Below are positions 3,266 through 63,698 of a stretch of 64,000 nt of DNA, in pieces. Source of the stretch: Pseudomonadota bacterium (GTDB lineage Bacteria > Pseudomonadota > Gammaproteobacteria > Burkholderiales > Thiobacillaceae); NCBI GenBank assembly GCA_021811235.1, contig JAJZPG010000005.1, forward strand, positions 62,001 to 126,000, read 5' to 3'. The position numbers were made by a program, and so were the translations under genes. Within the stretch, counting starts at the first letter, position 1; every line of letters starts with the position of its first letter. The notes under the pieces are model-generated. The model saw nothing but the letters and a program-made list of their open reading frames with translations. It was not told where the DNA came from and did not search any database.

Positions 3266-3354
3266 AGGATTTAGGGGCTGGGATTTAGGATTTAGGGGTG
3301 GTGCGGCTTCGCCGCGCCACGTCCCCTAATTCCTAGCCCCTAGCTCCTAGCCCC
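3266..3354. repeat. Inverted tandem-repeat element (TTAGGGG/CCCCTAA arms) between nrtB and the ATPase gene
   Basis: The left arm consists of repeats of the type GGATTTAGGGGCT and the right arm of CCCCTAATTCCTAGCCCCTAG. Between them is a GC-rich hairpin (GTGGTGCGGC, loop TTC, GCCGCGCCAC). The element begins next to the ATPase ribosome-binding site and ends exactly at the nrtB stop codon, so it fills the intergenic space. The same arm vocabulary recurs at 44812-44924. Confidence 0.85.
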
Positions 3355-4269
3355 TCATTCATACGAGAACCGTTTGGCCAGCAGCATCAGCGCCTGCTCA
3401 AGCAGCAGCCCGACGATGCCGACGACGAAGATGGCGATGATGATGTGGGCGACGTTGAGGTTGTTCCATTCGTCCCATACCCAGAAGCCGATGCCGACGC
3501 CGCCGGTGAGCATTTCGGCAGCGACGATCACCAGCCAGGCCACGCCGATCGACAGGCGCACGCCGGTCAGCACGTAGGGCAGCACTGCCGGGAACAGGAT
3601 CTTGGTGAACACCTTGAACTCCGACAGGTTGAGCACGCGCGCGACGTTCATGTAGTCCTGCGGGATGCGTTGCACGCCGGCGGCGGTGTTCAACACCATC
3701 GGCCAGATGCTGGAGATGAAGATCACCCAGATCGACGCCGGCTCGGCCTTCTGCAGCACCAGGAGGCCGATCGGCAGCCAGGCCAGCGGCGACACCGGAC
3801 GCAGGATGCTGATGATGGGCGACAGCATCTGGTTGAGGAACTGGAAGCGCCCGATCATGAAGCCGAGCGGAATTCCCACCACCGCCGCGGCACCGAAACC
3901 GAGGCCGACGCGGTACAGCGAGTTGAGGATGTTCCAGCCGATGCCCTGATCGTTGGGGCCGTTGTTGTAGAAGGGATCGGAAAACAGCTCGACCGCGGCA
4001 GCCCAGGTTTCGGATGGACCGGGAATGGATTTTCCGCTGTTGGCAACCAGCGCCCACAGGGCGATGAACAGCAGGATGCCGAGCAGCGGCGGGATCAGAC
4101 CCTTGAAGAGATTCACCGTGCCTTCGACGAGACGCTTGCCCGACTCGGTTTCGAAGTAGGGCGTGCGGCGGGCGGGAGCCGCTGCCGCAGATATTTTGGT
4201 GGTCGGGGCGATATCCTCGCCCGATAGGATTTCGCTCAAATTTTCGGTTGTTGCATTGACTGCGCTCAT
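3355..4269 (-). CDS. nrtB: Nitrate ABC transporter permease
   Basis: 304 residues with about six hydrophobic segments. The first is near residues 58-75 (LLGILLFIALWALV). The EAA-type permease motif (MNVARVLNLSEFKVFTKILFPAVLPYVLTG) lies around 205-235, as in NrtB/SsuC permeases. The C-terminal end (LEQALMLLAKRFSYEW-like) is also typical. It forms the membrane channel for nitrate or nitrite import with NrtA and the ATPase. The gene lies 58 bp downstream of the globin gene. The stop codon directly abuts the repeat element at 3266-3354. Confidence 0.93.
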   Translation of the reverse strand: MSAVNATTENLSEILSGEDIAPTTKISAAAAPARRTPYFETESGKRLVEGTVNLFKGLIPPLLGILLFIALWALVANSGKSIPGPSETWAAAVELFSDPFYNNGPNDQGIGWNILNSLYRVGLGFGAAAVVGIPLGFMIGRFQFLNQMLSPIISILRPVSPLAWLPIGLLVLQKAEPASIWVIFISSIWPMVLNTAAGVQRIPQDYMNVARVLNLSEFKVFTKILFPAVLPYVLTGVRLSIGVAWLVIVAAEMLTGGVGIGFWVWDEWNNLNVAHIIIAIFVVGIVGLLLEQALMLLAKRFSYE

Positions 4270-44004: not shown

Positions 44005-44120
44005 CAGGGGTCAGGATTCAGGGGTCAGGAGGCAGGGAAGCTTGTGCTTCGCACTCTTGAATAATGCGTGGCCGCCGGCCGCATTCCCTCTGAATCCTGA
44101 TCCCTGAATCCTGACCCCTA
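44005..44120. repeat. Inverted tandem-repeat element (GGGGTCAGGATTCA arms) between rpe and gph
   Basis: The left arm is built from GGGGTCAGGATTCA units and the right arm from their complement (TGAATCCTGACCCC). Comparing the left arm with the reverse complement of the right arm, about 22 of the first 25 bases match. A loop of about 47 nt holds a GC hairpin (GCGTGGCCGCCGGCCGC). It starts 4 bp after the rpe stop and ends 5 bp before the gph ATG, which has no Shine-Dalgarno sequence. Confidence 0.85.
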
Positions 44121-44811: not shown

Positions 44812-44924
44812 TTAGGGGCTAGGGGCTTGGATCTAGGATCTAGGGCGCGCGCCATCGGCGCGCGATGGTGACGCTGTGCGTCGCTTCATTCCCTAGCCCC
44901 TAAATCCTACCCCTAGCCCCTAAT
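44812..44924. repeat. Inverted tandem-repeat element (TTAGGGGCTAGG arms) between gph and trpE
   Basis: TTAGGGGCTAGGGGC... at the left and its complement (CCCTAGCCCCTAA...) at the right enclose a GC hairpin (GCGCGCC, ATC, GGCGCGC). It starts 2 bp after the gph stop and ends 1 bp before the trpE ATG. The arms share their units with the element at 3266-3354. Confidence 0.88.
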
Positions 44925-55877: not shown

Positions 55878-55879
55878 CG

Positions 55880-55950
55880 AGATTCAAGGTGCAAGGTGCA
55901 GGGACAAGGTTTTCCTTGAATCTTGCAACTTGAGTCTTGAAACTTGAGCC
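55880..55950. repeat. Inverted tandem-repeat element (CAAGGTG/CTTG arms) between trpC and the HerA-like gene
   Basis: The inner stem GATTCAAGG...CCTTGAATC is perfect (9 bp). The flanks are short repeats of TGCAAGG on the left and TTGCAACTTGAGTCTTGAAACTTGAG on the right. It starts 2 bp after the trpC stop and ends 6 bp before the stop of the convergent gene. It could serve as a bidirectional terminator. Confidence 0.75.
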
Positions 55951-60212: not shown

Positions 60213-61223
60213 CTAGCCGACGTTTTTGTCCTGATCACACCACAGCCACGCCGCACCGCGCACGCCGCTGGAGTCACCATACTGCGGCGGCACCAGCTTG
60301 GTGTCGACGCGGTCGGAAAACACGTAGCGCGGCCACAGCCGCGGCACCGTGTCGTACAGGCGGGCGATGTTGGAGAGCCCGCCGCCCAAGACGATGACGT
60401 CGGGATCGATCAGGTTGATCACGCCGGCCAGCGCACGCGCCAGGCGTTCCTCGTAGCGGGCGAGCGTGGCGCTGCAGGGGCCGTAGCCCGCATTCGCCAG
60501 CTGCACGATCTCGTGCGCGGGCAGCTCCTCGCCGCCGTAGCGCACGTGGTCGGCGGCGAGCGCCGGGCCCGACAGCCAGGTTTCGACGCAGCCTTTTTTT
60601 CCACAGTAGCAGGCGGGGGCGGCGTCGAGTTCGCGCGGGCTCGGCCACGGATGCAGGATGGCTTCGCCGGTGGCCGGATGCTGTCCGGTACCGTCGCGGT
60701 CGGACGGCGCCGCGGCGAACTGGAAGTAGGGCAGGGGCGAGTGCCCCCACTCGCCGGCGATGGCGTTCGCGCCCCGGAGCAGTTGGCCGCGCACCACCAC
60801 GCCGCCGCCGACGCCGGTGCCGAGGATCACGCCGAATACGCTGTCGGCGCCGGCCGCCGCGCCGTCGACGGCTTCCGACAGGGCGAAGCAGTCGGCGTCG
60901 TTGGCGAGCCGGAGGGTCCGGTTCAGTGCGCGTTCGAGGTCCTCCTGCAGGGGTTTCCCATTGAGACAGGTCGAATTGCAGTTCTTCATGCGGCCGGAAG
61001 CGGGCGAGATCGCCCCCGGCGTGCCGACGCCGACCGAGCCCTGTTGCCCCAGCTCGAATTCGGCCTGGTGCACCAGCGCGGCGACGGCAGCCACGGTGGC
61101 GAGGTAGTCGTTCTGCGGGGTCGGCACCCGGCGGCGCAGGACCTCCCGGCCGCCGGCGTCGAGCGCGACGAGTTCGATTTTGGTGCCGCCGAGGTCGACG
61201 CCGAGACGAAGAGGGGGAGCCAC
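60213..61223 (-). CDS. ROK-family sugar kinase
   Basis: 336 residues from GTG ([15 protein letters not shown]), with GGAG upstream; a TTG-initiated extension to 61247 is possible. ATP motif GVDLGGTK, the catalytic Asp in [12 protein letters not shown], and the zinc site [15 protein letters not shown] define ROK glucokinase/fructokinase-type enzymes. Length is about 20 residues longer than NagC-type kinases. The substrate is not fixed. Confidence 0.93.
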
Positions 61224-61264
61224 GGTGTAAAATCTCCGGCTATTCAAATTGCGTTGGAATCGAC

Positions 61265-61996
61265 ATGGCAGGACATTCGAAATGGGCCAACATCCAGCAC
61301 CGCAAGGGTCGCCAGGATGCCAAGCGCGGCAAGATCTTCACCAAGCTTATCAAGGAAATCACCGTGGCCGCCAAAATGGGCGGCGGCGATCCCGCGATGA
61401 ACCCGCGCCTGCGGCTGGCGATCGAGAAGGGCAAGGCCGAGTCGTTGCCGAAGGACAACATTGAAAATGCGATCAAGCGCGGCACCGGCCAGCTTGAAGG
61501 CGTCAACTACGAGGAAGTGCGCTACGAGGGCTACGGCATCGGCGGCGTCGCAGTGATGGTCGACTGCCTGACCGACAACAAGGTGCGCACCGTCGCCGAC
61601 GTGCGCCATGCCTTCGTCAAGCACGGCGGCAACATGGGCACCGACGGCTGCGTCGCATTCCAGTTCAAGCACTGCGGCCAGATCATCCTGGAGCCGGGTG
61701 CGAGCGAGGAGGCGGTGATGGAGGCCGCGCTCGACGCCGGCGCGGACGACATCATCCCCAACGACGACGGCTCGATCGAGGTGCTGACCTCGCCCGACCC
61801 CAAGGCCTTCGAGGCGGTGAAGGAGGCGCTGGAAAAGGCCGGCTTCAAGCCGGCGGTCGCCGAGATCACCATGCGTCCCGAGGCCGAGACTGAACTCGAC
61901 GGCGACGACGCGGTGAAGATGCAGAAGATCCTCGACGCGCTCGAAAGCCTCGACGACGTGCAGGAGGTCTACACCAACGCCGTGCTGCCTGAGTGA
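61265..61996 (+). CDS. yebC: YebC/PmpR-family transcriptional regulator
   Basis: 243 residues with the canonical start [23 protein letters not shown] and the family motifs [44 protein letters not shown] and [13 protein letters not shown]. The stop TGA lies inside the first GTGAGGC repeat at 61993. YebC is next to ruvCA in many bacteria; recent work implicates YebC proteins in translation of proline-rich sequences or transcription control. Confidence 0.97.
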
Positions 61997-62020
61997 GGCG
62001 TGAGGCGTGAGGCGTGAGGC
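61993..62020 (+). repeat. (GTGAGGC)4 left arm
   Basis: Four perfect tandem copies, forming with the right arm at 62405-62432 a perfect 28-bp inverted repeat. The first copy holds the yebC stop codon, and later copies supply a GAGG Shine-Dalgarno and a GTG start codon for the four-helix-bundle gene. Confidence 0.95.
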
Positions 62021-62378
62021 GCGCAAGCACGATGATCTGATGGCCTGGCAACAGGCCATGCAACGGGTCAGGCACGTCTACGAAGTCACGCGTATATTTC
62101 CTGCAGATGAGAAGTCTGGGCTGATTTCGCAGATGCGGCGGGCAGCGGTTTCGGTGCCCGGCAATATTGCCGAAGGCGCAGCGCGGCAAACGGGTAGGGA
62201 ATGTGCACAATTTCTGACGATCGCGCGCGGCTCGCTCAGCGAACTCGATACCCAGCTTATGCGGGCCAGGGAGTTGGGATTCACCCCGGCGCAGCCGGAA
62301 CTGGAAAGCCTGATCGACCGGATTTCCGGATTGCAGGGCGGCCTGCTGAATTCGCTCCAGAACGAAGGCAAATCATGA
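62007..62378 (+). CDS. Four-helix-bundle (23S rRNA IVS/S23-type) protein
   Basis: 123 residues. Family motifs: [84 protein letters not shown]. The GTG start lies inside the third GTGAGGC copy; an in-frame TGA lies at 62001 just upstream. It overlaps ruvC by 4 bp (ATGA). The family is found as free genes and in rRNA intervening sequences, and is related in fold to diversity-generating-retroelement Avd proteins. It sits between perfect inverted repeats. Confidence 0.9.
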
Positions 62379-62944
62379 CATCCCGGCTGTCGAGCCCGGC
62401 CAACGCCTCACGCCTCACGCCTCACGCCTCACGAATTCTTGGCATCGACCCTGGCCTGCGCCTCACTGGTTTCGGCGTGATCGAGCAGACCGGCCAGAAG
62501 CTCGCCTACGTGGCGAGCGGGGTCATCAGGAGCGGCGAGGGGGAATTGCCTGCCCGGCTCGGCGTGCTGTTCGCCGGCCTGAACGAAGTCATCGCCACCT
62601 ACCAGCCCGACACCTGCGCGGTGGAAATCGTCTTCGTCAACGTCAATCCGCAGTCCACGCTGCTGCTCGGGCAGGCGCGCGGCGCCGCCATCTGCGCGGC
62701 AGTGTCGAACGAACTCATGGTCGCCGAATACACCGCCCTGCAGATCAAGCAGGCGGTGGTCGGCCACGGCAAGGCGGCCAAGGAGCAGGTGCAGGAAATG
62801 GTCAAGCGTCTGCTGGCGCTGCCCGTGGCGCCGAAGGCCGACGCCGCCGACGCGCTTGCCTGCGCGATCACCCACGCGCACGGCTGCCGGCTCGGTACGC
62901 AATCGACCGCGGGTTATCGCGTCAAGGGCGGTCGGCTCGTATGA
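62375..62944 (+). CDS. ruvC: Holliday junction endonuclease RuvC
   Basis: 189 residues. The RNase H-fold motifs [62 protein letters not shown] and [18 protein letters not shown] place four catalytic acidic residues. The family normally starts at the residue equal to R-I-L-G-I-D. Here about 19 extra residues ([19 protein letters not shown]) come from the end of the S23 gene and the GCCTCAC repeats. It resolves Holliday junctions with RuvAB. Confidence 0.95.
62405..62432 (+). repeat. (GCCTCAC)4 right arm
   Basis: Four perfect tandem copies, the exact inverse of the left arm. They lie inside the ruvC reading frame and encode part of the N-terminal extension. Confidence 0.95.
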
Positions 62945-63122
62945 GCCCTGCCCTGGCGCCGGCCGAACCGACTCGAGAGCGCCTGCCTATCCGTTTCGCC
63001 GCGCCGACCGAGCGCCTTGCGCCCGCCCTCCGGAAAACGCTGCTTGTCGCCCATGCGCACGCTTTGCCGCCAGCGGCTATCCTGTCTTATATCTGCATGA
63101 ACTTCACGATCGGTCACGCAAC

Positions 63123-63698
63123 ATGATTGGACGCATTACCGGCATGCTCGCCGCCAAGCAGCCTCCGCAGGTCCTGGTGGACGTGAACGGCGTCGGCTAC
63201 GAGATCGACGTGCCGATGAGCACCTTCTACAACCTGCCTGCGATCGGCGAGAAGATCAGCCTGCTGACCCATCTGGCGATCCGCGAGGATGCGCATCTGC
63301 TGTACGGATTCGGCAGCGAGATCGAGCGGGCGGCCTTCCGCGAACTGCTGAAGGTATCCGGCATCGGTGCCAAGACGGCGCTGTCGGTGCTGTCCGGCCT
63401 GTCGGTCAACGACTTGTCGGCAGCGATCGCGGCGCAGGAAATCGGCCGCATCGTCAAGGTGCCCGGCATCGGCAAAAAGACCGCCGAACGCCTGCTGCTC
63501 GAACTGAAGGGCAAGCCGGTGTTTGCCGGCGCGATTGCCAGCACCGAATCCGCAGGCATATCGGACGACGTGCGCCAGGCGCTGCTGGCGCTGGGCTACA
63601 ACGAGCGCGAGACCACCGAGGCGGTGCGCCAGCTGCCGCCCGACCTGCCGGTAGGCGAAGCGATCCGGCAGGCCTTGCGGGCTTTGTCGAGGAACTAG
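63123..63698 (+). CDS. ruvA: Holliday junction DNA helicase subunit RuvA
   Basis: 191 residues. N-terminal OB domain with [39 protein letters not shown], central HhH domain with [15 protein letters not shown] and [16 protein letters not shown], and C-terminal domain III ([22 protein letters not shown]) that binds RuvB. It is separated from ruvC by 178 bp. RuvB is expected downstream but the next gene is a membrane sensor. Confidence 0.97.

Follow-up and report, generated by a model that had tools for sequence, protein, structure and literature searches.

In a 64,000-nucleotide stretch of DNA (the window), a gene for an S23-type four-helix-bundle protein lies between two inverted arrays of seven-base units. 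We read this feature, with a probability of roughly 60%, as belonging to a two-part repeat system that resembles REPIN/RAYT; it would be the member that bears the gene, and the S23 protein would act as the trans factor. The observations behind this reading are the architecture of the locus, the match between S23 type and repeat unit within the genus, relatives with an empty site, selection on the S23 genes and a core that is dispersed in genomes. They suggest that S23 genes and their matching arrays form an overlooked gene-plus-repeat element.

The S23 gene (62007..62378, + strand) encodes a protein of 123 aa with a predicted pI of 9.1. Its ORF matches PF05635 (E = 1.9e-30, 105.6 bits against a cut-off of 33.8) and TIGR02436 (99.7 bits against a cut-off of 24), which places it in the S23/23S_rRNA_IVP family. 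The left arm, (GTGAGGC)4 followed by a G, occupies 61993..62021 (+), and the right arm, a C followed by (GCCTCAC)4, occupies 62404..62432 (+); the heptamer cores are at 61993–62020 and 62405–62432. The arms are 29 nt long, 100% complementary and separated by 382 nt. An earlier note, made from the sequence alone, had described two four-heptamer inverted arms around one S23-type ORF, and this description proved exact. Between 61901 and 62500 the longest exact inverted repeat is 29 nt, vs. at most 12 nt in 60 dinucleotide shuffles, and the 14-mer GTGAGGCGTGAGGC occurs six times in the window (both strands), always within the two S23 arms, and in none of 100 shuffles. A chance origin of the arms was rejected on these grounds. 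RNA fold prediction for the element gave a single stem closed by the arms, at -223.9 kcal/mol (z = -6.45, 100 shuffles).

The upstream neighbour yebC (61265..61996, +) ends within the left arm, its TGA stop codon (61994–61996) lying inside the first heptamer. GAGG is found at 61995–61998, 8 nt upstream of the S23 GTG start, which falls in the third heptamer. The heptamer had been said to supply a stop, a Shine-Dalgarno core and a start, such that the arm ends yebC and then starts the S23 gene; these signals are present as described, because the TGA lies within the first heptamer and GAGG stands 8 nt before the GTG at 62007. It is plausible that the repeat arms would serve as a translation-coupling device.

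The junction between yebC and ruvC was compared at 50 loci of the same genus (50 of 54 rows). It is empty in 27, with 7–22 nt between yebC and codon 1 of ruvC, and holds an S23 cassette of 427–457 nt in 11. The cassette starts with the yebC stop codon and ends at ruvC codon 1, except in L192, where the stop codon comes six bases later. Other inserts of 352–698 nt, of at least two kinds by sequence, are present in 12 of the 50 relatives (L158, L162, L166, L167, L175, L178, L183, L184, L188, L190, L191 and L195), and the junction can be regarded as an insertion hot spot for that reason. Empty sites in relatives are a property that the cassette shares with classical transposons and IS elements; a transposase and a target-site duplication are not among its features. 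No duplication is visible at the cassette junctions in the 50 loci, where the cassette replaces the 7–22-nt spacer, and neither a recombinase nor any gene other than S23 was recognised in the window cassette from its ORFs and Pfam matches. The earlier note had proposed a mobile, gene-bearing cassette. Its insertion between adjacent genes is borne out by the empty and occupied junctions. Arm length, whose variation between strains the note proposed to examine, varies between species, and so does arm sequence. Active mobility of the cassette is not supported: S23 genes of one type cluster at one site in the genus, and neither a target duplication nor a recombinase was seen.

A point absent from the earlier note is that the right arm can be read in frame with ruvC: an ATG in this frame, at 62375, shares bases with the S23 stop codon (ATGA), so that RuvC would gain an extension of 19 residues; with this 19-codon cassette-encoded extension, and with its start codon as presumed here, ruvC would span 62375..62944 (+). 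The RuvC N-terminus thus seems to be encoded by the right arm. An in-frame ruvC ATG is found 48–57 nt upstream, within the cassette, in 10 of the 11 yebC–ruvC cassettes. In the L154 cassette (G047), ruvC has no in-frame ATG, GTG or TTG start. At L034:2382-3311 the N-terminus of an RfbA-like protein, MTTHHSPLTTHHSPLSTHRKGIILAGGSG, is encoded by an arm, just as that of RuvC seems to be, and at L040:664-1989 a gmd-like gene beside an S23 gene of class D (classes are given below) contains an apparent heptamer-derived in-frame coding insert (..SSLATCNLQLATGD..). Our model predicts places where repeat arms recode gene ends, the N-terminus of the window RuvC being one example.

Inverted arrays were then scored in the flanks of S23 genes generally, with flanks shifted by 500–1100 bases as controls (496). 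The genus set comprised 49 loci from all 50 rows (two fragments of one gene were joined; L049 is weak and probably not S23). The phylum set comprised 69 of 93 rows (two rows from the window's own genome were already in the genus set, and 22 fragments or weak rows were left out). The named set was the best 80 of at least 586 confirmed stretches, picked by likeness to the query. Inverted arms scoring ≥15 were found at 125 of 198 S23 loci vs. 1 of 496 shifted control flanks, and at the looser score of ≥12 the figures were 152/198 and 36/496. For the genus and phylum sets, 37/49 and 39/69 loci scored ≥15, and 44/49 and 52/69 scored ≥12; for the named set, the best 80 of at least 586, the numbers were 49 and 56. 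The best period among the 125 arm-bearing loci was 7 in 109 and 8 in 12. Within the named set, again the best 80 of at least 586, loci at ≥15 include Xanthomonas, Bacteroidetes, Planctomycetota, Acidobacteria, Kiritimatiellae, Atribacterota, Hydrogenedentota, Syntrophomonadaceae and Clostridiales; among those below 15 (scores 8–14) are Shewanella, the four Flavobacterium loci and the two loci of Nitrospirae/Nitrospirales. The search for S23 genes flanked by inverted tandem arrays, as suggested in the earlier note, was therefore productive, and the picture it expected, with empty sites in close relatives and arms at most other S23 genes examined, is the one observed.

The second S23 gene in the window genome also has inverted heptamer arrays, of another unit, TAGGGGC/TAGGATT. 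The idea of one cassette sequence common to all S23 loci was rejected, as the arms differ by S23 type. When own arms were compared with arms swapped within a class, they were clearly more alike within an element in class E only, and not in classes A–D. In L240 (Shewanella abyssi), the S23 gene has a heptamer array on either side, one with the unit GTGAAGG and the other with CAGTAAG, and the two are not complementary because their units differ. In the phylum family f51 (L062, L079, L087 and L091), the S23 flanks carry the 8-mers GGGGAGTA and TAGGGCAG, not 7-mers.

Within the genus the repeat unit follows the type of the S23 protein, under classes A–E that we set from N-terminal sequence together with the arms. 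RDLKVWQ proteins go with TCAGG, RDLSVWQ and RDLLAWQ with TAGG, ELVAWQQ and the window protein with GTGAGG, ERLEAWK with GGTGAGY, EDLAVWK with CAAG and RDLLIWQ with GAGAGT. The types occupy only about five sites in the genus (the site clustering by homologous neighbours put classes D and E together, and one locus of each was read to tell them apart), so few sites bear on the match at the gene itself. The link between type and unit is better tested across whole genomes. Arrays of four classes (AB, C, D and E) were counted in 56 genomes, those at S23 genes being subtracted, and phylogenetic regression (PGLS) was performed on a ruvC+yebC tree with 50 of the 56 genomes (one-sided p). With the arms of the gene itself removed, arrays of each class are predicted by the presence of the S23 type that belongs to it: p = 1e-5 for AB, 2e-4 for C, 2e-3 for D and 2e-4 for E. 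Of the 12 off-diagonal tests, AB to C (p = 0.025) and D to C (p = 0.007) reached nominal significance. The array counts include pattern matches that overlap one another; in G002, for example, 73 class-AB matches correspond to ∼19 places. Two genomes, G014 (63) and G053 (89), abound in AB arrays although they have no AB S23 gene, and others have the cognate S23 gene and few arrays (G001 with 2 and G046 with 7 for AB; G015 with 0 for E). The association of S23 with arrays is a correlation, giving no direction.

The earlier note was silent on the arms as a repeat class that tracks S23 type and is also found without a gene. This property is modest in the case of the GTGAGGC unit: the strict pattern matches seven times in the window genome, four of these matches belonging to the window element and the remaining three falling in two places elsewhere. 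Almost no arrays were found in 40 stretches of 20 kb from eight related genomes, which had been sampled to obtain an unbiased count. Dispersed cognate repeats matched to a trans gene, the hallmark against which REPIN/RAYT likeness was judged, are thus present in the genus and more loosely in a second family described below.

Four gene-less heptamer hairpins were located in the window: one of class A (unit TCAGGGG/TCAGGAT) at 44006..44119 between rpe and gph, two of class B, at 44812..44923 between gph and trpE (unit TAGGGGC/TAGGATY) and at 3270..3356, and one of class D, with CAAG units, at 55878..55939. The names rpe, gph, trpE, gmd, fcl, rfbA/B and pdhB/C are those that we take to apply from a reading of the translations. 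Predicted RNA folds of the gene-less hairpins have z-scores of -5.7 to -9.7. At the rpe–gph and gph–trpE sites in 30 loci of relatives, hairpins of different classes, or none, were found. At these sites in L201, L203, L208 and L210 we also saw further repeat classes (CACAGAG, ACACGAAG and ACGCGAAG) with no known S23 partner.

Class A and class B hairpins have in common a core of ∼57 nt with two small hairpins. The core pattern gave 49 matches in 26 of 56 genomes, and the reversed pattern gave 12. Among the 30 of 49 matching rows in which the arms were examined, class A/B arms flank the core on both sides in 27 and on one side in 1; the other 2 are chance matches. By eye, the core occurs in at least five flanking contexts. 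At rpe–gph it is inverted relative to other species (L227 and L212; G013 and G038), the alignment giving 61 on the opposite strand and 15 on the same strand, which fits recombination between the arms or reinsertion. The core is similar whether its arms are A or B, and the letters of the arms mostly follow the resident S23 subtype: at one orthologous site, subtype A is accompanied by TCAGG arms and subtype B by TAGG arms. The CAGG fraction in core elements elsewhere was 0.76 with subtype A and 0.16 with subtype B (15 vs. 6 elements, one-sided p = 0.0013 with kinship ignored). Exceptions are G000, G045 and one element of G002, and the A–B identity of the S23 proteins, 61–64%, is hardly under that of one within-A pair (68%). 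A derivation of the core from the ends of S23 elements was rejected, as the similarity was no higher than in shuffles.

These hairpins admit another explanation, namely that the arrays are mRNA hairpins between operon genes, for processing, stability or coupling, that S23 is a class-specific RNA-binding protein acting on all of them, and that the arrays form a regulon and are not mobile. The hairpins at rpe–gph and gph–trpE do lie between co-directional genes near stop and start codons, their predicted RNA folds are strong, S23 has an Avd-like fold (below), and most such repeats in Xac are transcribed according to the available part of the published account (PMC4692102). We nevertheless consider it rather unlikely. 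The occurrence of the core in several contexts, and in both orientations at rpe–gph, looks like dispersal and turnover; different repeat classes at one site across species likewise speak for turnover and not for a conserved regulon, and the yebC–ruvC site is empty in many relatives. This explanation and the involvement of an unlinked enzyme, considered below, are the main rivals of the two-part system.

The AlphaFold model of the window S23 is a confident four-helix bundle (pLDDT 92.3). Its best structural matches are 2GSC and BT_0352 (2RLD), and Avd is a weaker one: Foldseek gave TM values of 0.71/0.78 and E = 0.07 for Avd (4DWL), and 8UB7 was also matched. Avd is a pentameric bundle. The S23 genes are under purifying selection, with a median dN/dS of 0.05–0.14 in the five classes (91 of 158 pairs, dS 0.05–1.5). 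The median predicted pI of 115 S23 proteins is 8.1. PADLOC returned one weak AbiEii match (E = 0.0026).

The arrays might instead be moved by an unlinked enzyme, be it a reverse transcriptase or a single-strand transposase of the RAYT or another type, with S23 as passenger or accessory. This seems unlikely to us, even though no catalytic motif or domain was recognised in S23, the structural relative Avd belongs to a reverse transcriptase complex (the 8UB7 and 4DWL matches) and the second S23 gave a weak match to the Avd HMM (31.6 bits, under the cut-off of 80), a model that did not match the window S23. No gene for such an enzyme was recognised within the window element, and no reverse transcriptase was recognised by eye among the ORFs listed at the locus.

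The second family consists, presumably, of xanthomonads, a taxon that we assign from the repeats. In 149 genomes, 20 or more GGGAWT matches were present in 37 of the 64 with S23 vs. 2 of the 85 without (Fisher 2.6e-15, kinship ignored). Arms were scored at 30 of 88 listed places, of which 27 reached ≥15 and 29 reached ≥12; the shifted controls cover the genus, phylum and named sets only. GGGAWT units make up both arms at 9 of 15 S23 loci of array-rich genomes vs. 1 of 15 in the others; of the six array-rich genomes that deviate, G534, G587 and G478 each have a single S23 gene, with arms of another unit. The type-unit match is looser in this family than in the genus. Three named Xanthomonas S23 loci, L235, L241 and L243 (among the best 80 of at least 586), carry GGGAATC-type arms. 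That the arrays are ordinary short tandem or G-quadruplex repeats produced by slippage, with the S23 gene merely among them, would suit the variable unit numbers, the loose match in this family and the observation that in many genomes no other long simple repeats are as common as heptamers (PMC4679880, as far as the accessible text goes), but it is very improbable given the inverted arms at S23 genes (125/198 vs. 1/496 controls), the type match within the genus and class D units (CAAG...), which are devoid of the G runs needed for quadruplexes.

In the two-part system that we favour, the S23 gene would fold into one long stem together with the inverted arrays on either side of it, each of about four seven-base units. 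The four-helix bundle, which has a pentameric relative in 2GSC, would bind folded arrays of its own class in trans, as DNA or RNA, and S23 together with host enzymes would propagate or maintain the arrays, in the manner proposed for RAYT with REPINs. The GTGAGGC unit may be tolerated between co-directional genes because it supplies stop, Shine-Dalgarno-like and start triplets. A 23S rRNA intervening sequence (IVS) that contains an S23 ORF would represent such an element placed in an rRNA gene. A further idea, which we hold as quite doubtful, makes S23 a specificity factor: the seven-base arrays of the hairpin arms would be written in place, or overwritten there, so as to agree with the S23 subtype that is resident. 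Such rewriting might be a telomere-like or template-switch process, by which the same site, and even the same core, would change its unit between species. If so, rRNA IVSs, the Xanthomonas quadruplex repeats and perhaps the cyanobacterial STRRs would be its products.

S23 proteins have remained "hypothetical" since their discovery in rRNA IVSs, and no trans factor for the abundant bacterial heptamer repeats was found in the literature searched. The match gives each a testable partner, since every S23 type has a predicted target sequence, and it offers one origin for rRNA IVSs, the inverted heptamer pairs of xanthomonads and intergenic hairpins. The gene-in-a-stem architecture is known from IVSs; as far as our searches reach, its genome-wide pairing with matching arrays is undescribed. 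None of the literature matches listed, few of them subscription papers, ties S23 genes to dispersed heptamer arrays.

Several known systems can be compared. In the REPIN/RAYT (TnpA_REP) system, a trans gene has co-evolved with its cognate short repeats (PMC3116915 and PMC8266576, available in part). The present system is similar in having a trans-acting gene and cognate repeats that are dispersed in intergenic space as inverted doublets. RAYT, as described in those parts, is an HuH transposase, whereas S23 is a four-helix bundle without a recognised catalytic motif, and the S23-linked repeats are tandem 7-mers, unlike the REPIN palindromes. The gene in the window element matches PF05635 only in Pfam, with no sign of an HuH (Y1) transposase, and the element is not a RAYT system for that reason. 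With Avd of the diversity-generating retroelements the window S23 has its fold in common (Foldseek); it differs in that no reverse transcriptase was recognised at the locus and the Avd model found no match in it.

Heptamer repeats themselves have been described before. In the available part of their paper, Rehm et al. (2015; PMC4692102) reported intergenic tandem GGGNATC heptamers in Xanthomonas and Nostoc, with four units preferred, 70–75 inverted heptamer pairs per Xanthomonas genome and generally no association with mobile elements. The repeats of the second family resemble these quadruplex-forming repeats, and 2GSC (Xcc0516), the best structural match of the window S23, is from a species studied by Rehm et al. 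The terms "s23" and "four helix" have no occurrences in the text seen of that paper, whereas in the second family the presence of S23 goes with GGGAWT arrays. Geobacter metallireducens has four-heptamer elements of the unit GGACCGG in 49 copies (PMC2700814) and Beggiatoaceae have TAACTGA repeats (PMC4679880); these, too, are short tandem heptamer arrays dispersed in the genome, and no S23 link was found in the accessible parts of the two accounts. The cyanobacterial S23 locus L282 (one of the best 80 of at least 586) has heptamers on one side only. Cyanobacterial STRRs are tandem heptamers able to form hairpins, and we know of no S23 link for them.

A close parallel in architecture is the 23S rRNA IVS, in which, as in the window, an S23 ORF lies inside a terminal stem; in the window the 29-bp perfect arms pair in the predicted fold. 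The window element differs in lying between the protein genes yebC and ruvC, and is not an rRNA IVS by virtue of this location. Matching gene-less arrays in the genomes of the window genus are a second difference. No Rfam match was obtained in 61200–63200 at E ≤ 1, and an rRNA context was rejected for the 50 other S23 loci scanned, as 0 of them gave an LSU rRNA match at the gathering threshold. In the Coxiella IVS, an S23-family ORF of ∼14 kDa lies inside a long inverted-repeat stem of 28 bp, with tandem GACAGAT heptamers in variable number upstream of the ORF (PMC4990558, in the part available). As the Coxiella IVS has the same parts, tandem heptamers included, such IVSs can be read as the rRNA-inserted version of the element.
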